Positions 17,154 through 56,307 of a DNA stretch of 64,000 nucleotides are shown here, piece after piece. A model generated the notes under the pieces. That model was not told the DNA's origin. It ran no database searches and was given only the letters and a program-made list of their open reading frames with translations. Location: positions 62,001 to 126,000 of the forward strand of contig JAHIVC010000101.1 of the NCBI GenBank assembly GCA_018816945.1. Reading direction: 5' to 3'. The position numbers and the translations under genes are program-made. The DNA is from Bacteroidota bacterium (lineage in GTDB: Bacteria > Bacteroidota > Bacteroidia > Bacteroidales > GCA-2711565). Within the stretch, counting starts at the first letter, position 1. Each line of letters begins with the position of its first letter.

Positions 17154-17167
17154 TTAAAACAAATAAG

Positions 17168-18160
17168 ATGAATAAGCAAGAAAATACAGAATACTGGGAG
17201 CGAATGACTAAATATTTTTCAAATGAGCTTAACAAAGATGAAAAATCTATGTTTGAAGAATGGGCACAAAAGGTCGATAATCAAGATCTCCTTAATCAAA
17301 TGAAAAGGGATTTCGAAAAGATTGACGATACAAAATATGTATTTGAAAAATCAACTGATCAGGCTTGGGGGGAATTATATTCTAAAATACAGCTTGACGA
17401 TATAAAAGTTTCAACTAAGAATAAATACACCATTAACTTCCGCATATTTTATCAAGCAGCTGCAGCCCTGATAATTGTCTTTGGTTTAAGCTGGGCACTA
17501 ATCCATCTAACTAAAGGTAACTCACAAAAAATCATTACTACTGAATATTCGCAATCTGAAATTACACTTTCTGATGGATCAATCGTATTCCTGAATGCCA
17601 ATAGTAAGCTAATTTATCCGGAGAAGTTTGAAGGTAACAATCGCACTGTTGAGCTTATTGGAGAAGGTTTTTTTGAAATCACTCCTAACCCCGAAAAACC
17701 ATTCATTATTACTGCAAACGATGCTGAAATTAAGGTGTTAGGAACCAAGTTTAATGTTTTTGCATATAAAAATATCAGCAAAGTTGAAGTATTGGTTGAA
17801 TCCGGTATTGTTAGCTTATCCTCTAAAAGTGAACCAAAAAATGCTCTTTTACTTGAAAAAGGCGAATTCGGCTTTTTAAGTGATAATATTTTGCAAGAAT
17901 CTTTAGTCCCAACTCCAAATTATCTTTCATGGATAACCAAAGTAATGGATTTCAGAAATGAAGATCTCGTTTCTGTTTTAGAGGTGATTAACCATACTTA
18001 TGGGGCTAATATAAAATTAGAAGGCGAACCATTAAAAGAACTTAAATTAACCTCGAAATACGACAATATTCATCTCGACACTTTATTACAATCAATTTGT
18101 ATTGCTTTTAATCTTGAAAAATCCGAAATTAACAACCAAATAATATTAGCTAATAAATAA
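17168..18160 (+). CDS. FecR-family anti-sigma factor
   Basis: A 330-aa membrane anti-sigma factor. The N-terminal cytoplasmic part (1-90) would bind the sigma factor, and a transmembrane helix spans about 95-114. The periplasmic FecR domain (about 125-225, with ITLSDGSIVFLNANSKL and FNVFAYKN) and a C-terminal STN-like DUF4974 domain (about 255-330) follow. In the classical FecIR system a TonB receptor signals through this protein; here the next gene supplies an STN domain without a beta-barrel. Eight nt precede that gene. Confidence 0.9.
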   Translation: MNKQENTEYWERMTKYFSNELNKDEKSMFEEWAQKVDNQDLLNQMKRDFEKIDDTKYVFEKSTDQAWGELYSKIQLDDIKVSTKNKYTINFRIFYQAAAALIIVFGLSWALIHLTKGNSQKIITTEYSQSEITLSDGSIVFLNANSKLIYPEKFEGNNRTVELIGEGFFEITPNPEKPFIITANDAEIKVLGTKFNVFAYKNISKVEVLVESGIVSLSSKSEPKNALLLEKGEFGFLSDNILQESLVPTPNYLSWITKVMDFRNEDLVSVLEVINHTYGANIKLEGEPLKELKLTSKYDNIHLDTLLQSICIAFNLEKSEINNQIILANK

Positions 18161-41958: not shown

Positions 41959-41986
41959 TGTAACCTTTACCAATTTGCTCGGTAAT
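41959..41986 (+). promoter_or_regulatory. ECF-type promoter P1 (sigma factor 1)
   Basis: TGTAAC (41959-41964), exactly 16 nt, GGTAAT (41981-41986). The ATG of the sigma factor gene lies 27 nt downstream. Same arrangement as P2-P6 in this region, suggesting autoregulation. Confidence 0.7.
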
Positions 41987-42013: not shown

Positions 42014-42550
42014 ATGGAACATGACGAAATATTGATGTTTGAAGTCAAAAATGGAAACCTCGATTCACTTGTTCCATTATTTGACAAATATCATGTAAAA
42101 CTTTACAATTTCTTTTTACGCCTAACGCGTAACAGGGAAACTTCAGAAGATTTGACTCAGAATGTATTTAGTAGAATTATAGCTTATAAGCACACTTTTA
42201 ACGAGCAATATAAATTCAAAACATGGATGTATCAGATGGCGCGAAACACACATATTGATCATTATCATAAAAATAAAATGTATTTCTCAGATTTTGAAGA
42301 AACAGAACAAACATCCGTAAAAATGAGAGAAGCCATCGATGAAACTGAAAAAACCGAAAAACACGAAATCCTTTATGAAGCCTTGAATTTACTATCAATC
42401 GATGAACGTGAAATAATAGAGTTAAGCAAATTTCAGGATTTAAAATACGAAGAGATTTCAAAAATTACGGGAAATTCGATAGGAGCAATAAAAGTAAAAG
42501 TGCATAGGGCAGTGAATAAATTAAGAAACAATTATTTTCAATTAGCATAA
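42014..42550 (+). CDS. ECF sigma factor, module 1
   Basis: A 178-aa ECF sigma factor with region 2 (about 18-85, SEDLTQNVFSRIIAYKH, WMYQMARNTHIDHYHK) and region 4 (about 120-175, LKYEEISKITGNSIGAIKVK). No extra domain. It is followed after 11 nt by its putative anti-sigma factor. The homologous module at 51401 has the same order. It probably reads the TGTAAC promoters found before it and before the ABC genes. Confidence 0.9.
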   Translation: MEHDEILMFEVKNGNLDSLVPLFDKYHVKLYNFFLRLTRNRETSEDLTQNVFSRIIAYKHTFNEQYKFKTWMYQMARNTHIDHYHKNKMYFSDFEETEQTSVKMREAIDETEKTEKHEILYEALNLLSIDEREIIELSKFQDLKYEEISKITGNSIGAIKVKVHRAVNKLRNNYFQLA

Positions 42551-42561
42551 AACTCAGGATC

Positions 42562-43377
42562 ATGGATTGCAAAAAGATAAATAGTTTACTCATAGATTTT
42601 GTGGATAAACAATTAGATGCAGAGCATATAAAATCAGTTCAAACTCATCTGGCTGATTGTAAAAATTGCCGTCAGGAAGTGGAAGAATTAGCCATCATTA
42701 TGAATGAGATCAATACGATTGAAGAAAGACAACCTTCAGAAAAACTAAAGGCAAATTTTATTCAAATGATTGAAGAGCAGAAATCAAAATCTATCGCCAT
42801 TGAGGCCAAACCCATTCAATCTCATCATTCAGGAAATTATACCCGATTGCGTTTTCTGAATCCGATGTATCAGGTTGCTGCTGGTTTTGCAATTTTAATC
42901 TCCGGATTGCTTTTAGGCTTACTGATCAACAAAAACAATGGAGTAAATAATAGCGAATTAATTGCTTTACAAAATGAAGTTTCGAACATGAAACAGGTAG
43001 TCATGTTATCTAAACTAGACCAAACTTCGCCAAGCTCGCGAATACAGGCAGTAGGTTATATGGAAGAACTTTCCAGCCCCGACCCGAAAGTTATTGATGC
43101 CTTGATCAATGCAATGAATGTGGATGAAAATTCAAATGTACGTTTAGCTGCCACAACTGCTCTTTCACGTTTTACCGACAATGATATTGTGCGCGAGGCT
43201 TTAATCAATTCATTGGCTATACAGGAAGATCCGATGGTTCAGATAACACTCATCAATATTATGATCGGATTGCATGAAACCAAAGCTAGCTCGTTCATTC
43301 AACGGATTGCCAATAATGACAATACTAATAAAAGCGTAAAATCAATCGCTCAAAAAGGGCTTGAAATTTTAATTTAA
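42562..43377 (+). CDS. Anti-sigma factor with zinc finger, TM helix and HEAT repeats
   Basis: A 271-aa protein. The N-terminal zf-HC2 anti-sigma domain shows Cys3, His29, Cys33 and Cys36 (HX3CX2C). A linker leads to a transmembrane helix at about 104-123, a short coiled coil (about 130-150) and HEAT-type repeats (about 155-268; MNVDENSNVRLAATTALSRF is one). By family logic the zinc finger is cytoplasmic and the HEAT domain periplasmic, where it could sense or bind a protein partner. HEAT repeats in this position are unusual. Paralogue at 51958. Confidence 0.82.
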   Translation: MDCKKINSLLIDFVDKQLDAEHIKSVQTHLADCKNCRQEVEELAIIMNEINTIEERQPSEKLKANFIQMIEEQKSKSIAIEAKPIQSHHSGNYTRLRFLNPMYQVAAGFAILISGLLLGLLINKNNGVNNSELIALQNEVSNMKQVVMLSKLDQTSPSSRIQAVGYMEELSSPDPKVIDALINAMNVDENSNVRLAATTALSRFTDNDIVREALINSLAIQEDPMVQITLINIMIGLHETKASSFIQRIANNDNTNKSVKSIAQKGLEILI

Positions 43378-43451
43378 AATTTAAAAATATATTGCCGGCC
43401 GCAATAAATCTGACAACAAATTAATCGCAAACAAAATAAAAAATAAACATT

Positions 43452-44252
43452 ATGAAAACTTTACAAAAACTGACACTGATAACTGTAGCTGTAGTATTTT
43501 TAGCTGCAAACTTAAGTGCACAATCATACAAACATGCCATTAAAAATTCAAAAAGGGTAGTCATTGAAAACTTACTTGGAGAAGTGACATTTGACGGCTA
43601 TGATGGAAATGAAATTATCGTGGAAGTCAGCAATTTTAAAGCCCTGCCAAAACGTGCTGACGGATTAAAAGCAATTTACGGCGGAGGTGAAGAGAATACA
43701 GGTATTGGTTTGACATTTCTTGAGTTAGACGGAAGTATCCAAATTTCGGGTGCAAGCAAACAATCGGAAAATGCAAAATATACTTTTAAGATTCCAAATT
43801 CGATGACACTGAAGGTGAATTATGCAAGTCCTTTCGCAGAATCAGATCAAATTGTATTTAAGAATTTCAAAAATGAAATTTCGGTTAAAACCTTGAATGC
43901 AAATATTGAATTCATAGATGTGACAGGCCCTATAACTTCAAGCACAATTGATGGAGATACGAAAGTTGTTTTCAGCAAGGTTAGTCAAGAAAGCCCAATT
44001 TCGATTTCAAGTATTGATGGTGAAATAGATGTCACCATACCTGCAAATACTCCATCAAATTTACGTTTCAGCAATTTTGATGGAGAAGTTTATACCGACT
44101 TTGACATTGTTTTTATTGATAAAGACAAAAAAGGTGATCATTCATTAAGTTATATTGGTGGCCATAATTCCTCAAGTGGCACAATTAATGGAGGTGGCGT
44201 TGAAATCAGCTTAAAAACGATTGACGGGATTATCTATCTCAGAAAAAAATAA
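43452..44252 (+). CDS. Exported DUF4097-type beta-solenoid protein, copy 1
   Basis: A 266-aa protein with signal peptide (about 1-24, ending ANLSAQ) and a repetitive beta-strand body of the DUF4097 (putative adhesin) type. Near-repeats such as SSTIDGDTKVVF and SISSIDGEIDVTI are seen. The C-terminus (INGGGVEISLKTIDGIIYLR) shares a tail motif with three other proteins of the region. Probably a surface or periplasmic beta-solenoid; ligand unknown. It is 74 nt behind the anti-sigma gene. Confidence 0.8.
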   Translation: MKTLQKLTLITVAVVFLAANLSAQSYKHAIKNSKRVVIENLLGEVTFDGYDGNEIIVEVSNFKALPKRADGLKAIYGGGEENTGIGLTFLELDGSIQISGASKQSENAKYTFKIPNSMTLKVNYASPFAESDQIVFKNFKNEISVKTLNANIEFIDVTGPITSSTIDGDTKVVFSKVSQESPISISSIDGEIDVTIPANTPSNLRFSNFDGEVYTDFDIVFIDKDKKGDHSLSYIGGHNSSSGTINGGGVEISLKTIDGIIYLRKK

Positions 44253-44292
44253 CCTTAATAGCGCTGTCCAAAAAGGTTCTTTGACTAGTCAG

Positions 44293-44323
44293 ATTGAGCT
44301 TCCGCCGGAGGTTGAAGCTCGAT
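44293..44323. repeat. Palindromic element between the DUF4097 genes
   Basis: Arms attgagcttc (44293-44302) and gaagctcgat (44314-44323) enclose ccgccggaggtt-like GC-rich sequence, flanked by tgac-containing words. It stands out from the AT-rich surroundings and looks like a REP-type palindromic element. No T run follows. The whole 198-nt gap holds nothing else recognisable. Confidence 0.5.
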
Positions 44324-44450
44324 GTGACAAGTCATATTTTAATCTTATCCTTGCTGACAGCCTATTCTCGCTTATTCCTGTATTCATTTATTTTAAGTGT
44401 AGCACTTTTCTACATAAGTGATAACTATAACCTTTAAAAACCAAAAAATC

Positions 44451-45152
44451 ATGAAAAAAATATACATAGCACTAAGCTTGATACTGATCACGCTTACTGC
44501 ATTCAACCAAACCATTGTTGAAAAAACAATAAAATTGAACAGTCAAAAAGAGGTGGTTCTGGATTTTGATTTTGCTGATGAGATTAAAATCAAAGGTTGG
44601 GACAAAAATGAAATCTATGTAAAAGTTAGTGTAAATATTAACGACAACGAAGACAACGGTGCTTTTAAACTAGACACAAAAGAGTCATCTTCTTTTGTAA
44701 GTTTTATATCGGACATTGAGAACATGAAAAAAATATCCAAAAATCGCATCACCGTTAAAACGACAGAAGATGGAAAGCGAACAACAACTTACAGTGATGG
44801 TTGGCATATAGATATGGATATCTATTTCGAAGTTTTTTTGCCAAAAAATATGAACGTCAATTTGGGAACCATTAGTGGAGATGTAATTCTTTCAGATGCG
44901 ATTGGTGAACTTAATATTGAAACAATATCCGGCTTTATTGACCTTACCATTGATAAAGTTGCCAAAGCGAGCTTAAAAACCTCAACCATAAGTGGAGGTG
45001 TTTATACCGATCATGATATCGAAATAAACAGAAAAGCCAGGAACGGAAAGTACCATATGGTAATTGGAAGCAGCCCTGATTTTGACATTAACGGTGGTGG
45101 CAGGTCAATAAACCTTAAAACCATTAGTGGCGACATTTATATCCGTAAGTAA
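44451..45152 (+). CDS. Exported DUF4097-type beta-solenoid protein, copy 2
   Basis: A 233-aa exported protein (signal peptide about 1-18, ending LTAFNQ) with strand repeats LGTISGDVILSDAIGELNIE and TISGGVYTDHDIEI. It ends in the shared tail INGGGRSINLKTISGDIYIR. The frame is open from a GTG at 44418, but ATG at 44451 places the signal peptide correctly. Same family as copies 1, 3 and 4. Confidence 0.8.
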   Translation: MKKIYIALSLILITLTAFNQTIVEKTIKLNSQKEVVLDFDFADEIKIKGWDKNEIYVKVSVNINDNEDNGAFKLDTKESSSFVSFISDIENMKKISKNRITVKTTEDGKRTTTYSDGWHIDMDIYFEVFLPKNMNVNLGTISGDVILSDAIGELNIETISGFIDLTIDKVAKASLKTSTISGGVYTDHDIEINRKARNGKYHMVIGSSPDFDINGGGRSINLKTISGDIYIRK

Positions 45153-45156
45153 ATAG

Positions 45157-45184
45157 TGTAACAAATTATAAAAAGAATCGTCTT
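45157..45184 (+). promoter_or_regulatory. ECF-type promoter P2 (permease 1)
   Basis: TGTAAC (45157-45162), exactly 16 nt, CGTCTT (45179-45184), with the permease ATG 27 nt downstream. The CGTC core is the classical ECF -10 motif. It begins just after the preceding stop codon. Confidence 0.75.
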
Positions 45185-45211
45185 TTATAATATCAACTAA
45201 AATCCATTCCA

Positions 45212-47551
45212 ATGCTTCGTAATTATTTTAAGATTGCCATCAGAAGTTTATTAAAACACAAAGGTTTTTCAGCGATAAACATCCTTGGTCTCGCAATAGG
45301 TTTAACAATTGCCATTCTAATTCTGCTTTGGGTAAAATTTGAGTTCAGCTATGATGAGATGCATGTCAACAAAGACAGGATATACAGATTGGGGCAAACT
45401 CAAATTTACACTTCAGGGCCATTAAGGGTTTTCGCCATGCCCGGGCCTTTGGCAGCTCAAATTAAGACCGATTTTCCGGAAATTGAAAATGCTTTTCGCT
45501 ATATTTTCAATGAAAAAACAATTCGCTATGAGGATAAAAAATTCAATGAAAGAGTAATATATACCGATGAGGAATTATTCTCGGTACTCACCATCGAATT
45601 TGTAAATGGGACGGCACAAAATGCTTTAACAGATGTTAATTCGATTGTCATTACCGATAAAATGGCAATGAAGTATTTTGGATCTACCGATGTTATAGGT
45701 AAAATACTAATCCTTGATGACACTAAAAATTTCAAAGTAACAGCGGTTATCAAAGAATTGCCAAAAAACTCCAGTTTTCGATGCGATTTCTGTATCCCAT
45801 TTTCTCATGTAAGAGAGATGGGCTTTGACTATACCACGTATAATAGCAACTGGAATTCAATTTATGTGCTGTTGGCAGAAGGAGCTGACATGATTACCAC
45901 AGGTGAAAAGATTAAAGAATACTTTAAAATCGTTAGAAATGATCCTGAGATTACTACTACGCTTTGGTTGTGGCCACTCAGCAAAGTGCATCTGTACTCA
46001 CCAAATGGCGGAGGTGGTATTAGAACTATCAGACTGTTTATTATTATCGCTTTTGTGATTTTAATTATTGCCTGTATCAATTTCATGAATCTTGTAACTG
46101 CCAAATCAACCTTGAGATCTAGAGAAATAGGACTAAGAAAAGTTTTTGGTGCAGGAAGGAAAAATATTATTGTTCAGTTTTTTGGTGAATCAATTTTAAC
46201 TACCATACTGGCCATGATAGTGGCGTTGATATTTGTTCAATTATTGCTCCCTTCATTCAACCTTATTGCCGAAAGAGAATTGATTTTCAATTTTGCAGAT
46301 ACCGACATCATTGCAGGACTTATTATTCTGATTATAATTACAGGGCTTATCGCCGGAAGCTATCCTGCTTTGTACTTATCTTCTTTCAAACCCATTAGCA
46401 TATTAAAAGGAACCGTCGTAAAAGGCAAGTCAGGTGTAATTTTCAGGAAATCATTGGTTGTATTTCAATTTTCCTTATCTATTATTTTAATCATTGGCAG
46501 TATCATCATCTATAATCAACAAAAACATTTGCTTAATAAGGATATTGGGATGGAACGGGAAAATGTAATTATGATAGGCATGCAGGGTGAGGTGAACAAT
46601 AAGTATGATGCGATAAAATCCTTACTACTTCAAACTCCGAATATTTCATCCGTATCAAGAGCCTCGCATTTGCCGATAATGATTGGAAGCAATACAGGCA
46701 GTATGACCTGGGAAGGAAGAGAAGATGACAAAGATATTTTGATAGGTTTCACTTTTGTTGATCTCGATTATCAGGAAGCGCTAGGAATGAAAATGGCCGA
46801 CGGCCGATTCTTTTCAAAAGAATTTGGGACAGATTCAGCTGCTGTCGTAATCAATGAAAGCGCAGCTAAAGTCATGGGATTAAATGATCCTGTTGGTAAA
46901 TGGCTGGCGTGGGGACCGAATCAAAAATATAAAATTATAGGCGTAGTTAACGATTTCAATTTTTTACATTTAAGCCAGGAAGTGAGTCCGATGGCAATGT
47001 TCTATTATACAGGACAATGCCGTTACCTGTTTATTAAGGCAATTAATAATATTGCTGAAACTACAAAATATATTGAAACATCATGGAATGAAGTCTTCCC
47101 TACCTATCCGTTCGAATATTCCATGTTAAATGATAAATATAAAGACATGTATGCAAGCGAAGAAAAGACAGGAACCCTTTTCAAATACTTCACTGTCTTG
47201 GCAATTATCATCTCTTGTTTAGGCTTATTTGGACTTGCCTCCTATATGGCTGAACAAAAGACCAAAGAAATTGGAATCAGAAAAGTTCTTGGTTCATCTG
47301 AATCAACAATTGTATATAACATGACTCTGGAATTTATCAAATGGGTTGTTATTGCAAACCTGATCGCATGGCCGGTTAGCTGGTATCTTGGAAAACAATT
47401 CCTTGATCAGTATGCATATCGAACAAATTTGGGGATTATTATTTTCCTTTTCTCTGGAATTGCTTCTATCATGATCGCAATACTTACAATTAGTTATCAA
47501 TCGTACCGAGCTGCCAGAGCAAATCCGATCAATGCATTAAGACATGAATAA
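45212..47551 (+). CDS. FtsX/MacB-type ABC transporter permease 1
   Basis: A 779-aa permease with two FtsX halves. An N-terminal TM helix (about 21-43) and a MacB_PCD periplasmic domain (about 50-245) are followed by three helices with REIGLRKVFGAGRKNII. A second TM helix near 415, a second periplasmic domain, and a final FtsX part with KEIGIRKVLGSSESTIV follow. Eight helices in total, as in Bacteroidetes MacB-like permeases. These use ATP hydrolysis for mechanotransmission or export. The ATPase is probably the one at 50436. Confidence 0.9.
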   Translation: MLRNYFKIAIRSLLKHKGFSAINILGLAIGLTIAILILLWVKFEFSYDEMHVNKDRIYRLGQTQIYTSGPLRVFAMPGPLAAQIKTDFPEIENAFRYIFNEKTIRYEDKKFNERVIYTDEELFSVLTIEFVNGTAQNALTDVNSIVITDKMAMKYFGSTDVIGKILILDDTKNFKVTAVIKELPKNSSFRCDFCIPFSHVREMGFDYTTYNSNWNSIYVLLAEGADMITTGEKIKEYFKIVRNDPEITTTLWLWPLSKVHLYSPNGGGGIRTIRLFIIIAFVILIIACINFMNLVTAKSTLRSREIGLRKVFGAGRKNIIVQFFGESILTTILAMIVALIFVQLLLPSFNLIAERELIFNFADTDIIAGLIILIIITGLIAGSYPALYLSSFKPISILKGTVVKGKSGVIFRKSLVVFQFSLSIILIIGSIIIYNQQKHLLNKDIGMERENVIMIGMQGEVNNKYDAIKSLLLQTPNISSVSRASHLPIMIGSNTGSMTWEGREDDKDILIGFTFVDLDYQEALGMKMADGRFFSKEFGTDSAAVVINESAAKVMGLNDPVGKWLAWGPNQKYKIIGVVNDFNFLHLSQEVSPMAMFYYTGQCRYLFIKAINNIAETTKYIETSWNEVFPTYPFEYSMLNDKYKDMYASEEKTGTLFKYFTVLAIIISCLGLFGLASYMAEQKTKEIGIRKVLGSSESTIVYNMTLEFIKWVVIANLIAWPVSWYLGKQFLDQYAYRTNLGIIIFLFSGIASIMIAILTISYQSYRAARANPINALRHE

Positions 47552-47573
47552 TTCCATTTCGGCTTATTATTAT

Positions 47574-47612
47574 AAAACGCAGACCTGCATGGGTTTGCGT
47601 TTTATATTTAAA
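47574..47612 (+). terminator. Terminator after permease 1
   Basis: A 12-bp stem (AAAACGCAGACC with GGGTTTGCGTTTT, allowing G-U) with a short loop and flanking A/T runs, 22 nt after the stop codon. Confidence 0.75.
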
Positions 47613-47642
47613 TTTCTTCATAAGTTAATGTTTTGTTAATAC

Positions 47643-47670
47643 TGTAACTTTTGGGCTTTCCGGTAGTAAT
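47643..47670 (+). promoter_or_regulatory. ECF-type promoter P3 (small membrane protein)
   Basis: TGTAAC (47643-47648), exactly 16 nt, AGTAAT (47665-47670); the ATG at 47702 lies 31 nt downstream. The -10 sequence is the weakest match of the series. Confidence 0.5.
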
Positions 47671-47701
47671 ATATTATAGAAAACCACGTTTCAAAAATGT
47701 C

Positions 47702-47887
47702 ATGGAAAGAATCATAAATTCGATCGTAAAATTTAAACCAAAGCATCAAAAATTCGCTTTCTGTTGTATAGGTATTCTATTTTGCACCTTGGCTTTTTTA
47801 CTCTTGGTTTCAAAGAATAATTTGCCATTTTCTTTATCCTCAGAAAACATCAGCCAAATTACCAAAGCCATTATTAATATTTTCTGA
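47702..47887 (+). CDS. Putative 61-aa single-pass membrane protein
   Basis: A small ORF between the two permease genes: MERIINSIVKFKPKHQKFAF starts a basic N-terminal segment, followed by a hydrophobic helix (about 19-37, CCIGILFCTLAFLLLV) and a short polar tail. A terminator precedes it and a TGTAAC-type promoter lies 31 nt upstream of its ATG, which argues for a real gene. The frame is open from 47651, but that codon lies inside the promoter. Could be a regulatory subunit of the ABC system, or chance. The remainder of the 472-nt gap holds promoter P4. Confidence 0.5.
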   Translation: MERIINSIVKFKPKHQKFAFCCIGILFCTLAFLLLVSKNNLPFSLSSENISQITKAIINIF

Positions 47888-47921
47888 TGAATTTGCCTTC
47901 ATAAATTCTATTTTCTTTCAC

Positions 47922-47949
47922 TGTAACCTTAATTAATACTTCAGGTATT
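47922..47949 (+). promoter_or_regulatory. ECF-type promoter P4 (permease 2)
   Basis: TGTAAC (47922-47927), exactly 16 nt, GGTATT (47944-47949). The permease ATG is 74 nt downstream, a longer leader than at the other sites. Confidence 0.6.
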
Positions 47950-48023
47950 CTTAATGAGCAATCAAGCTACTTTAGGATTAAATCATGTAAAGTATATCAG
48001 TAAAAGTATTCAAAACCCAAATT

Positions 48024-50375
48024 ATGATAACAAATTACCTTAAATCCGCCTTAAAATCTTTTAAACATGGTCTGTTCTATAATTGCATCAATATCGTTGG
48101 ACTTGCTTTAGGTATAGCCTGCTCAGTATTGATTTTGTTGTGGGTTTCCCATGAATTTAGTTATGAAAACTTCAATCCGAAGAAAAACCAAGTATATAGA
48201 ATCATTCAGGATATGGATTTTGAAAAGCCAGTTTCGTGGGCAATAAATCAAGGACCATTGGGACCTTCATTAGTAAAGGATTTTCCAGAGATTGAAAAAT
48301 TTACCCGCTTCAAGATTTCCGGATTTACATTGGAATATAATGAAACTAAATTCAGAGAGCGTGGAGGTTACGCTGATCACGATTTCTTTGATATTTTTGG
48401 ATGTAATCTTACATTAAGATCAGGAGATTCCGTTTTTAAAGATAACCGATCAATTGTATTGAGTGAAAAGCTTGCTAAAAAATATTTTAAGGACGAAAAT
48501 CCAATAGGGAAAACTTTAAAGGTTACAAATGAATATTTTATGGTCACCGGAGTATTTAAAAACGTCCCAAAAAAAACTCATTTATGGTACGATTATTTAC
48601 TCCCTATGAGTTTTGGAAAAGAAAGGGGGATGTCTGTTGATAGATGGAATAACAGTACTTTCTATACCTATTTATTAATTGCTGATGGGGTCAATGAATC
48701 GCAAATCAACGAAAAAATACGTCATTACCTTGATGACAAGCCAACCCTTGAGAAAAACACTGAACTAAAATTACAGCCCCTATCAGATATTCACTTATAT
48801 TCGAATGTCGATTTTGATTTTGCTAGCGGCGACATCAAATATGTACGGATTTTTATGATTGTGGCCATTTTTATACTTGTTCTGGCATGTATAAACTTCA
48901 TGAATTTATCTTCTGCCAGATCGATACGTCGGGCAAAAGAAATTGGAATCAGGAAAGTAATTGGGGCAAGTAGATTTCAGCTAATAAATCAAAATCTAGC
49001 TGAAACTTCTTTTCAGGTTTTTACATCTATTTTCATCGCGCTTATTCTAGTGAAATTTGCACTCCCATCTTTCAATAATATTGCTGGTAGAGAGCTGATT
49101 TTAGACCTATATAACCCGAATCTAATCGTTGGACTTTTATTTGTGCTTTTTATTTGCATCATTGTATCAGGACTTTACCCTGCAATACAGATATCTTTAT
49201 TTAATCCCATTCAAACATTAAAAGGGGGGCATGTTAAAGGTGCACATAATTCCAGTTTCATTAAAATGCTTGTAGTATTTCAATTTTTGACTTCCGTCAC
49301 ACTAATAATTAGTGTGATTACCATTCAGAAACAGCTAATCTACTTTCAGAATAAAAAATTAGGATATAATAAGGAACATGTTCTGAACTTTGGAATTTCA
49401 GCTGAATTCATTAATAAATTTGATAATATCAAGACTGAATTGCTCCAAAACCCTTATATAAAGGATGTCACACAAATGGTTGCTTATCCAAATCAAGGAT
49501 ATGCTTTTTCAAATACATTGTTTACCTGGGAAGGGATGCAGAGTGGGAAAGAAATACTCTTTAGAAATAATTTTGTTGGGTACGATTATTTTAAAACATA
49601 TCAAATGAAAATTGTTGAAGGGCGTGATTTTTCAAAAAATTATCCAACCGATACCATCGACGCCCTAATTGTTAATCAAACTGCTGTTAAAAGCATGGGG
49701 ATGGACAATCCAATTGGTCAGCGATTAAAATATAATAATCAGGATTACTTAACCATTGTTGGAGTAGTTGAGGATTACAATTTCTCATCCCTCAAAAACA
49801 AAGTAGAACCTCTTATATTATGGTTAAAACCGGCAGAATGCATGCAAATCAGTATCCGCATAGATGAAAATAATTATCAAAATGCCATTGGTTTTATTGA
49901 GGGAAAATGGAAAGAGTATGTAAAAAATGTACCTTTTCACTATGATTTTATGAATGAACGATTGAATATTATGTACACCTCTGAAAGGGAATATGCCAAA
50001 ATAATAACCTATTTTGCAATCCTTGCCATTCTGATATCTTGTTTGGGTTTATTCGGACTTACCTTTTATATGATCTCACAAAAGATGAAAGAAATTGGGA
50101 TTAGAAAGGTGTTTGGGGGAACAATGGGTGATATCCATATATATCTGACAAAGACCTTTTTAAAATGGGTATTTATAGCAAATCTTGTTTCATGGCCAGT
50201 TTCGTGGTATCTAATGGACAAATGGCTAGACAATTATGCCTATCACACCAAAATTAACATATGGACATTCATGCTAGCATTAGGAATTACTTTACTGATT
50301 GCCTTATTAACTATTTTATATCAAACAATAAAGGCATCTAATAGTAAACCTATTGATGTGCTCAGGTACGAATAA
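48024..50375 (+). CDS. FtsX/MacB-type ABC transporter permease 2
   Basis: A 783-aa paralogue of permease 1 with the same layout: N-terminal TM helix (about 21-41), MacB_PCD domain, three helices with KEIGIRKVIGASRFQL, and a second half ending in KEIGIRKVFGGTMGDIH. The two permeases could form a heterodimer or serve different substrates with a shared ATPase, whose gene follows after 60 nt. No MacA-type adaptor or TolC gene is nearby. Confidence 0.9.
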   Translation: MITNYLKSALKSFKHGLFYNCINIVGLALGIACSVLILLWVSHEFSYENFNPKKNQVYRIIQDMDFEKPVSWAINQGPLGPSLVKDFPEIEKFTRFKISGFTLEYNETKFRERGGYADHDFFDIFGCNLTLRSGDSVFKDNRSIVLSEKLAKKYFKDENPIGKTLKVTNEYFMVTGVFKNVPKKTHLWYDYLLPMSFGKERGMSVDRWNNSTFYTYLLIADGVNESQINEKIRHYLDDKPTLEKNTELKLQPLSDIHLYSNVDFDFASGDIKYVRIFMIVAIFILVLACINFMNLSSARSIRRAKEIGIRKVIGASRFQLINQNLAETSFQVFTSIFIALILVKFALPSFNNIAGRELILDLYNPNLIVGLLFVLFICIIVSGLYPAIQISLFNPIQTLKGGHVKGAHNSSFIKMLVVFQFLTSVTLIISVITIQKQLIYFQNKKLGYNKEHVLNFGISAEFINKFDNIKTELLQNPYIKDVTQMVAYPNQGYAFSNTLFTWEGMQSGKEILFRNNFVGYDYFKTYQMKIVEGRDFSKNYPTDTIDALIVNQTAVKSMGMDNPIGQRLKYNNQDYLTIVGVVEDYNFSSLKNKVEPLILWLKPAECMQISIRIDENNYQNAIGFIEGKWKEYVKNVPFHYDFMNERLNIMYTSEREYAKIITYFAILAILISCLGLFGLTFYMISQKMKEIGIRKVFGGTMGDIHIYLTKTFLKWVFIANLVSWPVSWYLMDKWLDNYAYHTKINIWTFMLALGITLLIALLTILYQTIKASNSKPIDVLRYE

Positions 50376-50384
50376 TTTATTTTT

Positions 50385-50412
50385 TGTAACATTTAAGTTA
50401 AATAGACGTCTA
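50385..50412 (+). promoter_or_regulatory. ECF-type promoter P5 (ABC ATPase)
   Basis: TGTAAC (50385-50390), exactly 16 nt, CGTCTA (50407-50412), 23 nt before the ATPase ATG. With P2 it is the best match to an ECF promoter. Confidence 0.75.
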
Positions 50413-50435
50413 TATAATATCAAAACCTATAAAAA

Positions 50436-51122
50436 ATGATCAGATCAACCAACTTATCGAAAGTATTTCGCACCGACGAAGTAGAAACAACTGCTCTTAA
50501 CGAAGTAACCTTTGAAATTAAAAAAGGTGAATTTGTAGCCATAATGGGTCCTTCCGGCTGTGGAAAATCAACACTGTTAAACATTCTTGGATTATTAGAC
50601 AATCCTACGAGTGGAGAATATTATTTCCTGGAGAACGAAGTATCCGGATTTTCTGAACGGCAACGTGCAAACCTGCGTAAAAACAACATAGGTTTTGTAT
50701 TTCAGAACTTTAATTTGATTGATGAATTAAATGTATTTGAGAATGTTGAACTTCCTCTTATTTACCTGGGTTATAGCGCTAAAGATCGTAAAAAACGTGT
50801 AGATGAAGTATTGGAACAAATGCAAATTATTCACCGCAAAAAACATTTTCCGCTTCAGTTATCAGGAGGTCAGCAACAAAGAGTAGCGGTTGCCAGAGCA
50901 GTAGTAGCAAATCCGGCTCTCATCCTTGCTGATGAGCCTACAGGTAACCTTGACTCGGCTCATGGCGAAGAAGTAATGAACCTATTAAGCGATTTAAACA
51001 GTAAAGGAACCACCATAATTATGGTGACTCACTCACAACGTGATGCGGAATACAGTCAAAGGGTTATCCGATTATTTGACGGGCAAATTATTGCTGAAAA
51101 CATTAAGGAAAAGATTCTTTAA
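50436..51122 (+). CDS. ABC transporter ATP-binding protein (MacB/LolD type)
   Basis: A 228-aa ATPase: Walker A GPSGCGKST (38-46), Q-loop in FVFQNFNLIDEL, signature LSGGQQQRVA, Walker B LILADEPTGNLDS and switch His in MVTHS. This type partners FtsX-like permeases. It is the only ATPase gene in the island, so it probably serves both permeases. Confidence 0.93.
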   Translation: MIRSTNLSKVFRTDEVETTALNEVTFEIKKGEFVAIMGPSGCGKSTLLNILGLLDNPTSGEYYFLENEVSGFSERQRANLRKNNIGFVFQNFNLIDELNVFENVELPLIYLGYSAKDRKKRVDEVLEQMQIIHRKKHFPLQLSGGQQQRVAVARAVVANPALILADEPTGNLDSAHGEEVMNLLSDLNSKGTTIIMVTHSQRDAEYSQRVIRLFDGQIIAENIKEKIL

Positions 51123-51150
51123 TCAAAATCACAAAATCACTATATATTCC

Positions 51151-51178
51151 TGGAGGCCAATGGCCTCCATTTTTTTTG
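51151..51178 (+). terminator. Terminator after the ABC ATPase gene
   Basis: TGGAGGCC and GGCCTCCA pair around AAT and are followed by a run of eight T, 28 nt after the ATPase stop codon. Confidence 0.9.
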
Positions 51179-51228
51179 AAACATACAACCAAATCATCCA
51201 TTCTCAATAACTTAAAAGATTTTAAATA

Positions 51229-51306
51229 AAAAACTCATAACTCATAATCCATAACTCCCGCCCGAACGTTCCGTTCGGAACGGGCGGGCATAATTCATAA
51301 CTTCTC
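51229..51306. repeat. AACTCAT repeats around a GC-rich palindrome
   Basis: Degenerate ataactcat words, as at 1-50, flank a GC-rich inverted repeat: cccgccc (51257-51263) pairs with gggcggg (51282-51288), with a nested cgttccg/cggaacg (51267-51273, 51276-51282). It contrasts strongly with its AT-rich surroundings and looks like a REP-like or miniature mobile element. There is no T run, so a terminator is unlikely. Confidence 0.6.
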
Positions 51307-51341
51307 AAATCACTATCTTTATAACTGAAATAAAAAAATTC

Positions 51342-51369
51342 TGTAACATTTTTGGTAAGCCGAAGTTTA
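51342..51369 (+). promoter_or_regulatory. ECF-type promoter P6 (sigma factor 2)
   Basis: TGTAAC (51342-51347), exactly 16 nt, AGTTTA (51364-51369), 31 nt before the TTG start of the second sigma gene. Confidence 0.6.
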
Positions 51370-51400
51370 TATAACTGTTAACTCAAAAATAGCCATCAAT

Positions 51401-51961
51401 TTGGAATCGATTTCTGACAATGCATTAATGCTAAAGGTTAAGTCGGGCGACTTAAGCAAACTTGGATTGCTATTTGAGAGGTATAACAAAGCGGTCTTTG
51501 GCTTCTTTTATCGAAACACTTCTAATCGTGAAATGAGTGAGGATTTAGTACAGATGTTATTTGAGCGCATCTTAAAATACCGCACTAATTTCAGGGGTGA
51601 TGGAAAGTTTGTCGTCTGGATGTACAGTATAGCCCGGAATGTACTGATTGATCATTACAAACAAACGAAAAAACAAGGATTTATGAAAGAGTTGGAAGAA
51701 GCCGGAAACATTGAATTCGTCGACGAAAATTACAATCAGGAAGCTATTGATGAAAGGCATCAATTACTAATTAAGGCAATGACCAAATTGGATAGTGATA
51801 AACGCGAATTACTTACACTGAGTCGTTACCAGGGATTGAAGTACAAAGAAATAGCTGAAATTATGCAGACTACAGAAGGCGCTATCAGAATTAAAATTTT
51901 CAGGGCCTTAAACGATTTAAGAATGCATTATTTAAAATTAGAAAAGATAGAAGCACAATGA
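51401..51961 (+). CDS. ECF sigma factor, module 2
   Basis: A 186-aa ECF sigma factor paralogous to the one at 42014: region 2 (SEDLVQMLFERILKYR, WMYSIARNVLIDHYKQ) and region 4 (LKYKEIAEIMQTTEGAIRIK). The start is TTG at 51401, the only start giving full region 2; it is consistent with the upstream promoter. Its end overlaps the anti-sigma gene by 4 nt (ATGA), indicating translational coupling. Confidence 0.9.
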   Translation: MESISDNALMLKVKSGDLSKLGLLFERYNKAVFGFFYRNTSNREMSEDLVQMLFERILKYRTNFRGDGKFVVWMYSIARNVLIDHYKQTKKQGFMKELEEAGNIEFVDENYNQEAIDERHQLLIKAMTKLDSDKRELLTLSRYQGLKYKEIAEIMQTTEGAIRIKIFRALNDLRMHYLKLEKIEAQ

Positions 51962-52761
51962 GTAAAGATGAATTATACAAATTAGTTTTAGATTACCTGG
52001 ACGGGAATCTGGATCCATTAAAGCTTGATATACTTAAGCACGAATTGGAAATGATGGGTTATGGTTTGGATAATTTGGAAGAATTAAAAACGCTGGTTAA
52101 AACCATGGATGAAATCGAAATCCCAGGTCCAAGTAGCGAAATGTCCGATCGTTTTTATCAAATGTTGGAAGCAGAAATAGATGAGTCGAAGCTAGCTTCA
52201 ACAAAAGGTTCTATTTTATCTTATCTAAGTAATTTCTTAACTCAATTTTTAACCTCAAAACTTTCATATGGTTTAATCATGTTAATATTTGGATGGATCA
52301 TAGGTTTCTGGATTACACCTAATACAAGCGTAAGCAATCAGATGAGCCAAATGAATATCGAGATACAACAAATGAAAGAAATGGTAATGTTTAGCATGCT
52401 TGATCAACCCATGGCGAGTGAGCGCTTACAAGCTATGAAGATGATCAGTCCTTCGCCCGTTGATAACGACAAAATTATTGCATCACTTTTAGATGCGCTT
52501 AACAAGGATTCGGATGTAAATGTCCGCATGGCTGCCGTGGAAGCCTTGCTTGCCTTTGCAAATTTAGATCAGGTTAGAAATGGGCTAAAAGAATCGGTTT
52601 TTAAACAAAATTCTCCACTGGTTCAGTTAACACTGGTCGATGGTTTGGTTGCAATTAATGATAAAGCAGCCATCCCGATATTCGAGAGTTTGATCAGCAA
52701 CAATGATGTTCATCAGGCAGTGAAAGACCGGAGCAGAGAAGGTATCACTAAATTAATTTAA
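51958..52761 (+). CDS. Membrane anti-sigma-like protein with HEAT repeats, no zinc finger
   Basis: A 267-aa paralogue of the 42562 protein. The N-terminal helical domain (1-55) corresponds to the anti-sigma domain but has no Cys at all, so the zinc site is lost. A TM helix (about 102-120), a Met/Gln-rich coiled coil (about 125-148) and HEAT repeats (about 155-265; LNKDSDVNVRMAAVEALLAF is one) follow. Gene order and coupling to the sigma factor support an anti-sigma role independent of zinc. Confidence 0.8.
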   Translation: MSKDELYKLVLDYLDGNLDPLKLDILKHELEMMGYGLDNLEELKTLVKTMDEIEIPGPSSEMSDRFYQMLEAEIDESKLASTKGSILSYLSNFLTQFLTSKLSYGLIMLIFGWIIGFWITPNTSVSNQMSQMNIEIQQMKEMVMFSMLDQPMASERLQAMKMISPSPVDNDKIIASLLDALNKDSDVNVRMAAVEALLAFANLDQVRNGLKESVFKQNSPLVQLTLVDGLVAINDKAAIPIFESLISNNDVHQAVKDRSREGITKLI

Positions 52762-52765
52762 GAAA

Positions 52766-53650
52766 ATGAAAAATATAAAAATAGCAATTATACTCACCTG
52801 CATTTCTTTACTTTTCTGCATATCGCTGAAAGCACAAGAAAGCAGTGAGAAAATAAAAGAGAGTTTTACGGTTCCCAATACCGATAATTATTCGGAAGTT
52901 CACATTCGAAACCTATTCGGATCGGTAAAGGTCGAAAACTATAACGGAACTACACTCCTATTGGAAGCCACTAAAACAATATCTTCTAAAAATCAGGAAG
53001 GACTCGATAAAGGAAAATCCGAAATTAAACTTGAGGTGTATGAATACGCAAAAGGATTGTTTATTTATTTGGATAATCCATGCGCAATTTTCGACGAAGA
53101 AAAACTTAGGTTAAATTATGATTGCTACGATCATCGAGGCTATAACAGTAGGGATTATAAATTCAACATGGATATTACTGTTAAGATTCCTGTAAATGTT
53201 GATTATGTTCATGTCAGCACCATCAATAACGGAAAAATTTACATTAAAGGATTAACCTGTAATCTGGATGTTAGCAATGTGAATGGCCCGCTAACCATAG
53301 TTGACCATGCCGGAAATATTGAAGCAACAACCGTGAATGGAGATTTAGATGTTAATTTCATAAAGAACCCTGATTCTTACGCCGAATTCAGCACCATTAA
53401 TGGTAAAATAGAAGTGTCATGTCTAAAAAATCTTTCAGCTAAAATTCAATACAAATCAATGAACGGGAGTTTTTATACCGATTACGAGGATATCACTTTT
53501 ATGCCTGCCGAATTAAAGAAATCTGAAAGCAAAAGATCAAGTTCTACTAAATACAAACTAAGTGATATCAAATCATTTAGTATTGGTGGGGGTGAAACGA
53601 AATTCAGTTTTAATACCCTAAACGGGAATATGTATTTAACAACGAAATAA
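52766..53650 (+). CDS. Exported DUF4097-type beta-solenoid protein, copy 3
   Basis: A 294-aa exported protein (signal peptide about 1-23, ending LKAQ). It shows strand repeats with NG turns (LDVSNVNGPLTIV, ATTVNGDLDVNF, STINGKIEVSC), matching the DUF4097 solenoid, and the C-terminal tail IGGGETKFSFNTLNGNMYL. Four nt follow the anti-sigma stop. Cysteines at about 98 and 112 could form a disulfide. Confidence 0.8.
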   Translation: MKNIKIAIILTCISLLFCISLKAQESSEKIKESFTVPNTDNYSEVHIRNLFGSVKVENYNGTTLLLEATKTISSKNQEGLDKGKSEIKLEVYEYAKGLFIYLDNPCAIFDEEKLRLNYDCYDHRGYNSRDYKFNMDITVKIPVNVDYVHVSTINNGKIYIKGLTCNLDVSNVNGPLTIVDHAGNIEATTVNGDLDVNFIKNPDSYAEFSTINGKIEVSCLKNLSAKIQYKSMNGSFYTDYEDITFMPAELKKSESKRSSSTKYKLSDIKSFSIGGGETKFSFNTLNGNMYLTTK

Positions 53651-53668
53651 TTAAAAAACTAATATAAA

Positions 53669-54478
53669 ATGAAAAAGATCAGAATAGTACTCATTACAAT
53701 GCTTAGCATCATAATGTTAGGTGCAATCGGACAGGAAACACAAAAGCAACAATTGGTTATTCCTTTGTCCGATCCAGGCAAACCGGGATTTTTAGCACTT
53801 GGTGGAATCAACTGTAGCATAAATGTTACCGGTTACGATGGAAAAGAAGTGATTGTGGTTGCTTATTCAAAAAATGGAATGGCTAAAATAAGCGAAACCA
53901 AAAATGGCATGAAAAAAATCAACGCTTCATCAATGAGCATTGAGGCTGAAGAAAAAGATAACAGGATTGATGTTTCCAGTGGGTTCTCTCATGAAGGTAT
54001 TAATTTTGAAGTTAAAGTTCCTTACAATTTTTCCCTTGAATTAAGCACGGTTAATGAAGGTGAAATTAAAGTTGAAAATGTAAATGGTGAAATCAGCGCC
54101 AATAATATAAATGGACCTATTACCTTACATAAAATAAGCGGTTTGGTATCTGCATCAACAATAAATGAAGATATCATCATTACTTTCGACAAAGTAACAC
54201 CTGATTCTCCCATGGCATTTTCATCGCTAAATGGAAATATCGACATTACTTTCCCAGCAAGTATCAAAGCCAATTTAAAAATCAAATGCGATCAAGGCGA
54301 TATTCTTACCGATTTTGATGTAGAGCTTAGCAAAGAACGAAAAGTAAACAACGAAACAAATAAAAAGGGCGTTTATAAAGTTTCGGTTGATGAATGGGTT
54401 TATGGTAAGATAAACGGCGGTGGCCCTGAATACTCATTTAAGAATTTCCATGGCGATATCGTTATCCGAAAGAAATAA
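53669..54478 (+). CDS. Exported DUF4097-type beta-solenoid protein, copy 4
   Basis: A 269-aa exported protein (signal peptide about 1-21, ending LGAIGQ) with repeats such as STVNEGEIKVENVNGEISA and FSSLNGNIDITF. It ends with the shared tail INGGGPEYSFKNFHGDIVIR. Last gene of module 2, followed by a strong terminator. Confidence 0.8.
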   Translation: MKKIRIVLITMLSIIMLGAIGQETQKQQLVIPLSDPGKPGFLALGGINCSINVTGYDGKEVIVVAYSKNGMAKISETKNGMKKINASSMSIEAEEKDNRIDVSSGFSHEGINFEVKVPYNFSLELSTVNEGEIKVENVNGEISANNINGPITLHKISGLVSASTINEDIIITFDKVTPDSPMAFSSLNGNIDITFPASIKANLKIKCDQGDILTDFDVELSKERKVNNETNKKGVYKVSVDEWVYGKINGGGPEYSFKNFHGDIVIRKK

Positions 54479-54496: not shown

Positions 54497-54530
54497 AAAA
54501 AAGGAGGAAAATTTTCCTCCTTTTTTTTAT
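54497..54530. terminator. Terminator between module 2 and lytT
   Basis: An 11-bp self-complementary stem (AAGGAGGAAAA with TTTTCCTCCTT) flanked by A and T runs; it serves both convergent transcripts. Confidence 0.88.
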
Positions 54531-55261
54531 AACAAATTGTGTTCCTCCAGAAAATCAAAAAATGCCTTCTTGTAACTTTCCCCGATTGGAATATTCATTT
54601 CCCCAACTTTCAAGCTTTTCTTTCCAATACTATCTATTTTTTCAACGGATATAATATAGGATTTATGAACCCTGATAAATTTGTTTTCGGGAAGGATATC
54701 CTCCATCCTTCTAAAATTTTGAAGTACCATAAGGCGTTTCTCAGGAGTTACAATTCTCAGATAATCTTTCATCCCTTCTATATAAAGAATATCTTTAAAG
54801 TTTACCTTTTGTAATTTATAATCCGATTTTACAAAAATAAAATTCCCCTTTTTATCCGTATGCATTTCTGATTCCTTCAAACGAATCGTACTTCCGGATT
54901 CTTTCTCTAGTATAGTATATACCTTTTCAACTGATTTTATGAATCGGTCGAAGCTGATTGGTTTTAAAAGATAATCGGTTACATCAAGCTCATAGCCTTT
55001 TATGGCATACTGGTCATAAGCTGTGGTTAGTATAACTTTAGGCTTTATTTTTAAAGCCTCAAGCAACTGAATGCCCGTAAAATCATCCATTTGGATATCT
55101 AAAAATATTAAATCAACGTGATTCTTTTTTAGATAATCCAATGAATCAGCCCCATTATCAAATGATGCCAATAAATTTAAATATTGAATTTTATCAATAT
55201 AGCCTTTCAATTTCTCAAGAGCTAAAGGCTCATCATCAATTGTAATACAATTAATTATCAT
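54527..55261 (-). CDS. LytTR-family response regulator
   Basis: A 244-aa response regulator: receiver domain (1-120) with acidic pair DD near 9-10 and phospho-acceptor Asp55 in FLDIQMDD, and a C-terminal LytTR DNA-binding domain (about 140-240; ENKFIRVHKSYIISVEKI). The open frame begins with TTG at 55264, but ATG at 55261 overlaps the kinase stop as TGATG and is the likely start. Forms a two-component pair with the kinase gene. Confidence 0.92.
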   Translation of the reverse strand: MIINCITIDDEPLALEKLKGYIDKIQYLNLLASFDNGADSLDYLKKNHVDLIFLDIQMDDFTGIQLLEALKIKPKVILTTAYDQYAIKGYELDVTDYLLKPISFDRFIKSVEKVYTILEKESGSTIRLKESEMHTDKKGNFIFVKSDYKLQKVNFKDILYIEGMKDYLRIVTPEKRLMVLQNFRRMEDILPENKFIRVHKSYIISVEKIDSIGKKSLKVGEMNIPIGESYKKAFFDFLEEHNLL

Positions 55262-56307
55262 CAACTTATAAGTTTTAAAACTACATGATACTTTTCATCA
55301 TCATTTTTGATATTTAATTCATGCTTGTCCTTGTATAACAATTCAAGACGGCGCTTAATATTTTGCAACCCAATGCCACCTGTCTTGTCTTTCGAAACCA
55401 CTGCATCTTTGACAAACGAATTAATGACTTCAAAAGTAATGGTATTTTCTTTAATTTCAACATTGATCAAAATTCCGGGCTTACTTTTCTGTTTACTACC
55501 ATGTTTGTATGCATTTTCTACAAAAGGCACAAAAAGCATTGGAGGGATCATTTTGCCAACCTGATCTCCCTTCACTTTGAATTGGGTATGACCGGAGTTT
55601 TTCAGTCTTAACTGTTGCAGAGAGATAAAACTTTGAATATAATCGAGTTCCTTCTCAAGCGGCACCAAATCGGCATTTGAATCATAAAGCATGTATCTCA
55701 TGATCTCAGAAAGCTTGATAATAGAATTTGAAGCTCGCTCCGGATTTTGTGGAATCAGTGTGTCAATATTATTTAAGGTATTGAATAAAAAATGTGGATT
55801 AATTTGAGATCTTAAAAGCGCCAATTCACTTATTAAGGATTGATTTTGCAATTCTGATTTTTCCTGTTGAGAAGCATACCATGCCTTAAGCAATTTTATT
55901 GCTATTGCGGAGATTGTCACTGAATAAACAGAGAAAAAGAGAGACAATATTGTATTTCTATTGAAAAAATTAAAAGCTTCTATTTTATCCGGTGAAACAC
56001 GCATTGGTAACTGAACATAATAATAGATCAAATACTCACAATACAATATTGGAATGGTGGTTAAAATGAAGTACAGAAAAAATTTAAAATATTTTTGTCG
56101 TAATAAGAATTTTGGCAATAAGAAATATAATGAGAAATATGTAGCCATCATATCGAATGGAATCGAAGCAAAATAACCTATAAACCTAAGCAGGTAAGCC
56201 TCATCAAATCTTCCACGATAAAAAGTATGGTAAAGCAAAACAGCTATCCAAAAAAGTAAGTGCCAACGTAATCGCAGCCAATTGATTGATAGATTCCAAT
56301 TTTTCAA
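55261..56307 (-). CDS. LytS/YehU-type sensor histidine kinase
   Basis: A 348-aa kinase with four predicted TM helices (about 17-140), a short coiled coil and a His_kinase (PF06580) domain with His172 in NPHFLFNTLNN. A C-terminal HATPase part contains NAYKHGSKQKS and GGIGLQNIKRRLELLY. No extra sensor domain. It is translationally coupled to the LytTR regulator and convergent to the DUF4097/ABC island, so a functional link is possible but not shown. Confidence 0.9.
   Translation of the reverse strand: MKNWNLSINWLRLRWHLLFWIAVLLYHTFYRGRFDEAYLLRFIGYFASIPFDMMATYFSLYFLLPKFLLRQKYFKFFLYFILTTIPILYCEYLIYYYVQLPMRVSPDKIEAFNFFNRNTILSLFFSVYSVTISAIAIKLLKAWYASQQEKSELQNQSLISELALLRSQINPHFLFNTLNNIDTLIPQNPERASNSIIKLSEIMRYMLYDSNADLVPLEKELDYIQSFISLQQLRLKNSGHTQFKVKGDQVGKMIPPMLFVPFVENAYKHGSKQKSKPGILINVEIKENTITFEVINSFVKDAVVSKDKTGGIGLQNIKRRLELLYKDKHELNIKNDDEKYHVVLKLIS

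Follow-up and report, generated by a model that had tools for sequence, protein, structure and literature searches.

A locus at positions 42014-54478 of the 64,000-nucleotide stretch analysed here (the window; Bacteroidota bacterium, GenBank assembly GCA_018816945.1, contig JAHIVC010000101.1) carries two modules of extracytoplasmic function (ECF) sigma factor, HEAT-repeat anti-sigma factor and Toastrack (DUF4097) genes, with the genes of an ATP-binding cassette (ABC) exporter between them. The core unit, composed of an ECF sigma factor, a membrane anti-sigma factor with outer HEAT repeats and one or two exported Toastracks, is strongly conserved, and the ABC exporter is a local, lineage-specific addition to it. 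As judged from the sequences, each module is probably an autoregulated envelope-stress switch that fires a lineage-specific payload through TGTAAC-N16-VGT promoters.

The initial annotation had proposed the co-occurrence of the four families in Bacteroidetes as a check, and for sigma, HEAT and DUF4097 genes it was borne out in two sets of loci. The phylum was searched with a profile of five HEAT anti-sigmas at E 1e-10, Toastracks not being used, and a HEAT anti-sigma was found in 52 of 395 genomes and in 27 of 171 genera. Set A holds 63 neighbourhoods with 69 distinct HEAT-type proteins, the window being skipped; of 68 matches outside the own genome, 60 were taken as 20-kb stretches and three more lay inside those, and G311, G459:C9, G248, G421:C12 and G306:C11 are left out. 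Set B represents 80 of 172 relatives (80 loci, 83 HEAT-type proteins) and overlaps with set A in organisms, e.g. L010/L179, L045/L221, L046/L216, L053/L228 and L068/L247. A sigma gene lies just upstream of the HEAT gene in 69/69 cases of set A, a Toastrack gene follows in 64/69 and two Toastrack genes in 53/69. The corresponding figures for set B are 81/83, 82/83 and 74/83, with sigma and Toastrack together in 81/83 and the two misses located at contig ends. As a control, 178,472 bases of permease-centred loci scanned with the same hidden Markov models gave no HEAT match, no Toastrack match and a single sigma. As titled, the set B loci come from Flavobacteriaceae, Cyclobacteriaceae, Fulvivirga, Roseivirga, Runella, Larkinella, Terrimonas, Saprospiraceae, Prolixibacteraceae, Marinilabiliaceae and Bacteroidales; two titles fall outside the phylum, those of a Bryobacterales and a Thalassobius metagenome-assembled genome (MAG), and may be binning errors.

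In the window, the locus consists of eleven genes whose order and + strand agree with the initial annotation, six promoter or promoter-like sites and a 62-amino-acid (aa) open reading frame (ORF) that was absent from the earlier list. In the following, TM stands for transmembrane segment:

41959-41986, + strand: promoter of the sigma1 operon, ECF-type, TGTAAC-N16-GGTAAT
42014-42550, + strand: ECF sigma factor 1, 178 aa, Sigma70_r2 and r4_2 over the Pfam cut-off
42562-43377, + strand: anti-sigma 1, 271 aa, with zf-HC2 anti-sigma domain, one TM and predicted outer HEAT repeats
43452-44252, + strand: DUF4097/Toastrack protein 1, exported, 266 aa, Pfam E 0.002, below cut-off
44451-45152, + strand: DUF4097/Toastrack protein 2, exported, 233 aa, Pfam E 0.0025, below cut-off
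45157-45184, + strand: promoter-like site before permease A, TGTAAC-N16-CGTCTT
45212-47551, + strand: permease A, 779 aa, ADOP-like, with two MacB_PCD and two FtsX stretches, ADOP model below cut-off
47643-47670, + strand: promoter-like site before the 62-aa ORF, TGTAAC-N16-AGTAAT
47702-47890, + strand: small one-TM ORF, 62 aa, without family match
47922-47949, + strand: promoter-like site before permease B, TGTAAC-N16-GGTATT
48024-50375, + strand: permease B, 783 aa, ADOP-like, MacB_PCD and FtsX over cut-off
50385-50412, + strand: promoter-like site before the ATPase, TGTAAC-N16-CGTCTA
50436-51122, + strand: ABC ATPase, 228 aa, LolD/MacB-like, ABC_tran over cut-off
51342-51369, + strand: promoter of the sigma2 operon, ECF-type, TGTAAC-N16-AGTTTA
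51401-51961, + strand: ECF sigma factor 2, 186 aa, TTG start, Pfam regions 2 and 4 over cut-off
51958-52761, + strand: anti-sigma 2, 267 aa, without zinc motif, one TM, predicted outer HEAT repeats
52766-53650, + strand: DUF4097/Toastrack protein 3, exported, 294 aa, Pfam E 9.1e-5, below cut-off
53669-54478, + strand: DUF4097/Toastrack protein 4, exported, 269 aa, predicted model compared with 4QRK

The identities given earlier to the sigma, HEAT, permease and ATPase genes hold at the Pfam cut-offs for both sigmas, both anti-sigmas (HEAT_2), both permeases (MacB_PCD and FtsX) and the ATPase. Both permeases also match the ADOP architecture of two MacB_PCD and two FtsX domains, and their full-length matches to the ADOP model TIGR03434 reach 297 and 276 bits, below its cut-off of 622.3. 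Among the eleven locus proteins, to which the search was confined, none matched PspA/LiaH, PspC, LiaI-LiaF-TM or LiaRS over cut-off, and the locus proteins scanned gave no match to a BceS/BceR two-component system or a BceB-type permease. The 62-aa ORF has no match in NCBIfam; its reading frame is intact in the sister MAG (L177), where 7 codons differ synonymously and 8 non-synonymously, which lends weak support to its being a genuine gene. At 54527-56307 the - strand encodes a response regulator of the LytTR type and a histidine kinase, convergent to module 2. A further ECF sigma, at 16605-18160, is paired with an anti-sigma of the FecR type; this different pair is of the nutrient type and has no HEAT repeats, and a third 'HEAT' match in the window (17168-18160) is its FecR-type anti-sigma.

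With regard to the DUF4097 assignment, the fold agreed and the family score did not. The first three proteins score 17.9, 17.7 and 22.4 bits with PF13349 (cut-off 22.9) and the fourth gave no match at E 0.01; since none of the four reaches the cut-off, membership rests on the fold. The predicted model of DUF4097-4, the one protein modelled of the four (predicted local distance difference test score, pLDDT, 86.9), has the right-handed beta-helix Toastrack fold and aligned to the Toastrack structures 4QRK with Z 14.2 (153 residues, root-mean-square deviation 2.5) and 4OPW with Z 11.3. An N-terminal signal-like segment is seen in all four proteins as judged by hydropathy only. Toastracks 3 and 4 match the LiaX model with E 8.8e-7 and 8.9e-7, at 28 bits and thus far below its cut-off of 350, and what suggests a link to antimicrobial peptides is solely the fold kinship together with such weak LiaX/LiaG profile matches. 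Between DUF4097-1 and -2, at about 44260-44330, there is a stretch with 'CTGTCCAAAAAG...', and a similar one lies near an unlinked DUF4097 gene at C15 (L001); it is perhaps an intergenic repeat.

Each of the two anti-sigmas has one hydrophobic segment of TM-helix length in its hydropathy profile, and the HEAT domain, being C-terminal to this single segment, is predicted to be located outside the cytoplasmic membrane. Anti-sigma 1 matches zf-HC2 with 28.0 bits (cut-off 22.2) and contains an H-x3-C-x2-C zinc motif; anti-sigma 2 has neither, and the motif occurs in 10/39 aligned relatives. The HEAT anti-sigma profile A3 matches the RsiW anti-sigma domain weakly (positions 4-77, E 0.0019). The predicted model of anti-sigma 1 (pLDDT 83.0, predicted template modelling score 0.50) shows helices at 3-78, a TM helix at 101-125, a long helix at 127-152 and HEAT helices at 157-270, and its HEAT part aligned to the artificial HEAT protein alphaRep with Z 15.3 over 124 residues (root-mean-square deviation 2.7). 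The A4 profile gave no match at E 0.01 to the sequences of solved structures. Conservation is highest in the HEAT part (0.44 versus 0.27 for the anti-sigma domain), a difference biased by the choice of loci with a HEAT peptide. A GxxxG motif in the TM segment is nearly invariant (37/39), which hints at helix pairing.

The two modules of the window group with different sets in a tree of sigma and anti-sigma sequences (FastTree, midpoint-rooted, some nodes weak), and their common ancestor spans 125/144 tips. A recent duplication is thereby ruled out; on this tree the modules are ancient paralogues, so that the word 'duplicated' in the initial annotation is wrong in the sense of a recent event. 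Paired modules also occur elsewhere, divergent in L041, L050, L232 and L237 and in tandem in L044. The sister MAG HGW-Bacteroidetes-17 (L177) carries anti-sigma 1 at 93% and keeps the order sigma, HEAT, two Toastracks, permease, permease, ATPase, sigma, HEAT, Toastrack.

That the locus shares one promoter type was confirmed, TGTAAC-N16-VGT being present before sigma1, permease A, the 62-aa ORF, permease B, the ATPase and sigma2. These six are the only sites in the window, all on the + strand and all between genes of this locus, and 20,000 first-order Markov simulations of 1,405 intergenic bases yielded no site in 19,890 runs and one site in 110. The genome as a whole contains 74 sites compared to 100 for the reversed control pattern; because there is no genome-wide enrichment, the clustering is what counts, six of the 74 sites falling within 12.7 kb. 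L177, with a DNA identity of 89-93%, retains all six, and the changes there are confined to spacers and flanks. Upstream of HEAT-linked sigma genes elsewhere (136 distinct genes, the window and L177 excluded), TGTAA[CT]-N16-VGT was found in 102 cases, and any other spacing from 8 to 24 gave 0 to 6 genes each. As the boxes were defined after viewing the sequences and many of these are related, it is the spacing peak and not the count that is the evidence. A generic permease promoter was ruled out, only 3 of the 33 other permeases in the genome carrying TGTAA[CT]-N16-VGT. A G+C-rich palindrome was seen by eye upstream of sigma2, at 51258-51290.

Sites of the same type are also found away from the locus. 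Some of those examined in the own genome stand before genes for an unlinked DUF4097 protein, for a permease, for an ABC ATPase and for a second ECF sigma, and an unlinked DUF5916 gene of this genome carries one as well; the DUF4097 gene in question, at C15, is the only gene of the genome over the DUF4097 cut-off. Within the same genus, G117 has such sites upstream of a permease, of a DUF5916 gene and of the ECF sigma that matches the second one. A DUF5916 gene lies downstream within 3.5 kb of the HEAT gene in 26/69 cases of set A and 1/83 of set B, and since 22 of the 26 belong to family f141, in another class of the phylum, its position after the module is a lineage trait in f141. Among the DUF5916 genes whose loci were read (10 of 14 matches), the 873-895-aa type (G000, G117, G550) has the site in 5/5 cases and the 813-823-aa type in 0/4 full-length genes and one fragment. 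When unlinked, the gene found after the module in f141 therefore has the module's promoter, and this pattern is the best evidence for what would be a common regulon.

A switch of this kind could operate as follows. The anti-sigma would hold the sigma factor with its cytoplasmic domain, and its periplasmic HEAT repeats would signal damage to the envelope, probably through gaining or losing contact with the exported Toastracks that are expressed together with it. Stress would then free the sigma factor and TGTAAC-N16-VGT promoters would fire, its own operon presumably included as judged by the conserved motif. The payload here would comprise the ADOP-type ABC exporter, the 62-aa membrane ORF and the unlinked DUF5916 protein; elsewhere it would be the DUF5916 gene directly downstream. 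More tentatively, the modules may constitute a Bacteroidota-wide pathway in which secreted Toastracks are periplasmic co-regulators of the HEAT anti-sigma, a sigma-based Gram-negative counterpart of LiaX/LiaF, with effectors (the DUF5916 outer-membrane protein, the ADOP-type exporter) interchangeable via one acquired promoter.

Several observations weigh against a switch with this payload. Within the window's own order, a search with the single protein gave full-length matches in 3/149 genomes, the own one included, and two N-terminal-only matches without HEAT (L005, L006). Five weaker HEAT matches in set A have no Toastrack, the motif was not found before 34/136 HEAT-linked sigma genes, and 30/33 other permeases of the genome are without a site. 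Of 58 sites, 30 were examined for genes; 7 precede families of the module or exporter type and the rest look like chance. Moreover, 0/69 HEAT genes of set A and 6/83 of set B have a permease within 3.5 kb (L225, L232, L237, L239 and the two modules of L177). These counts rule out the exporter as a core part of the system, and the description of the modules as lying around an FtsX-type ABC exporter applies to the window lineage and not to the system. What speaks for that description is the order kept in the sister MAG and the case of L239, from a genome with only 21 MacB_PCD matches, which has permease, permease and ATPase genes directly upstream of the module, though without the promoter motif. 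Counted over the full length of each locus, 14/83 set B loci contain a permease, which proves little because the genomes themselves hold from 21 to at least 119 MacB_PCD matches each (12 genomes). The own genome has 70 such matches and about 35 permeases of this length, and a dense cluster of ADOP-length permeases is located at G000 C99:405000-476500. Relatives of permease A in G117, G114 and G110 lie on short contigs that give no gene context.

The remaining points on the same side concern the -10 box, and they make it conceivable, if rather doubtful, that the exporter is part of a different ECF regulon (a C18-type sigma with a CGTC -10 box) and is merely placed between HEAT modules. The sites before permease A and the ATPase contain CGTC, whereas those of the two sigma operons end in GGTAAT and AGTTTA. 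No HEAT anti-sigma was found in G117 at E 0.001, yet the permease of this genome that is 61% identical to permease A is preceded by a site with a CGTCTA box; since the permease A site is thus kept without a HEAT module, another sigma may read CGTC sites. The second ECF sigma (G000 C18, G117 C420) has a site before its own gene, with CGTCTA in the case of C420. In Flavobacterium psychrophilum a CGT -10 ECF motif has been linked both to genes for type IX secretion and to a pair of ECF sigma and anti-sigma (PMC9723704). On the other hand, the boxes of permease B and the 62-aa ORF, GGTATT and AGTAAT, resemble those before HEAT-linked sigmas, and some HEAT-linked sigmas use CGTC boxes too (10 of the 102 with the motif). 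Two genomes of the genus share a conserved arrangement (L168, L163) of an ECF sigma, a small membrane partner, a divergent membrane gene and a TGTAAC-N16-[AC]GTCTA site, and an ECF sigma of this type may be the one that reads CGTC sites.

A further possibility, which we also consider questionable, concerns the Toastracks, which might be effectors (a shield or scaffold) and take no part in sensing, the HEAT domain sensing something else, e.g. a misfolded outer-membrane protein. Their number after a HEAT gene varies from 0 to 4, and the promoter site of the unlinked DUF4097 gene would also fit such a role. However, Toastrack genes are almost never missing beside HEAT anti-sigmas, and there is a precedent for a regulatory role: the C-terminal domain of Enterococcus LiaX has been reported as an inhibitor of the Lia system (PMC11601895), which by analogy would make LiaX the nearest precedent for regulatory Toastracks in the proposed switch. 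Finally, it is most improbable that the site clustering is an effect of chance or composition and that the ABC genes have nothing to do with the modules; the lack of genome-wide enrichment, the exporters not being neighbours of modules elsewhere and the choice of VGT after viewing the sites speak for it, but the simulated sequences never held more than one site, the spacing of 16 and TGTAAC were set by other genomes, and the sister MAG retains every site.

No described system of sigma/HEAT/DUF4097 composition was found in the open-access literature, in agreement with the initial annotation, and the switch, widespread in Bacteroidota, seems to be undescribed. Envelope-stress signalling in this phylum is little known, and few Bacteroidota ECF sigmas have been assigned an anti-sigma (PMC7406223). 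A conserved unit and a promoter sharp enough to be searched for open the pathway and its regulon to testing, and likewise the functions of DUF4097, of DUF5916 and of the many orphan ADOP-type permeases. Compared to exporters of the ADOP/MacB and Bce types, the present one shares MacB_PCD, FtsX and a LolD-like ATPase and differs in its sigma-linked promoters and in a locus without MacA, BceS or BceR. Class I pairs of the RsiW/RseA type likewise have an adjacent sigma and one-TM anti-sigma, an RsiW-like N-terminal domain and an autoregulatory promoter motif; here predicted periplasmic HEAT repeats replace their outer parts, exported Toastracks are co-transcribed and the zinc motif is a minority feature. 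Class I anti-sigma domains were found beside only 6% of Bacteroidetes ECFs (PMC7406223). The Toastrack contexts of PSP/Lia systems described by Ravi et al. (2024, PMC11237479) share the fold, 4QRK and 4OPW being named as examples, and include some in which a sigma factor lies in the operon and others in which an ABC ATPase and a permease are present. Their sigma, however, goes with DUF2089-like proteins and their ABC genes with a GntR regulator, and the main text mentions neither a HEAT domain nor an anti-sigma. Those authors argue for an intracellular Toastrack, whereas the Toastracks studied here bear signal-like segments. LiaFSR-LiaX of Enterococcus, finally, resembles the locus in that Toastracks 3 and 4 match the LiaX model, and differs from it in that LiaX is linked to a two-component system and the Toastracks to a sigma/anti-sigma pair.

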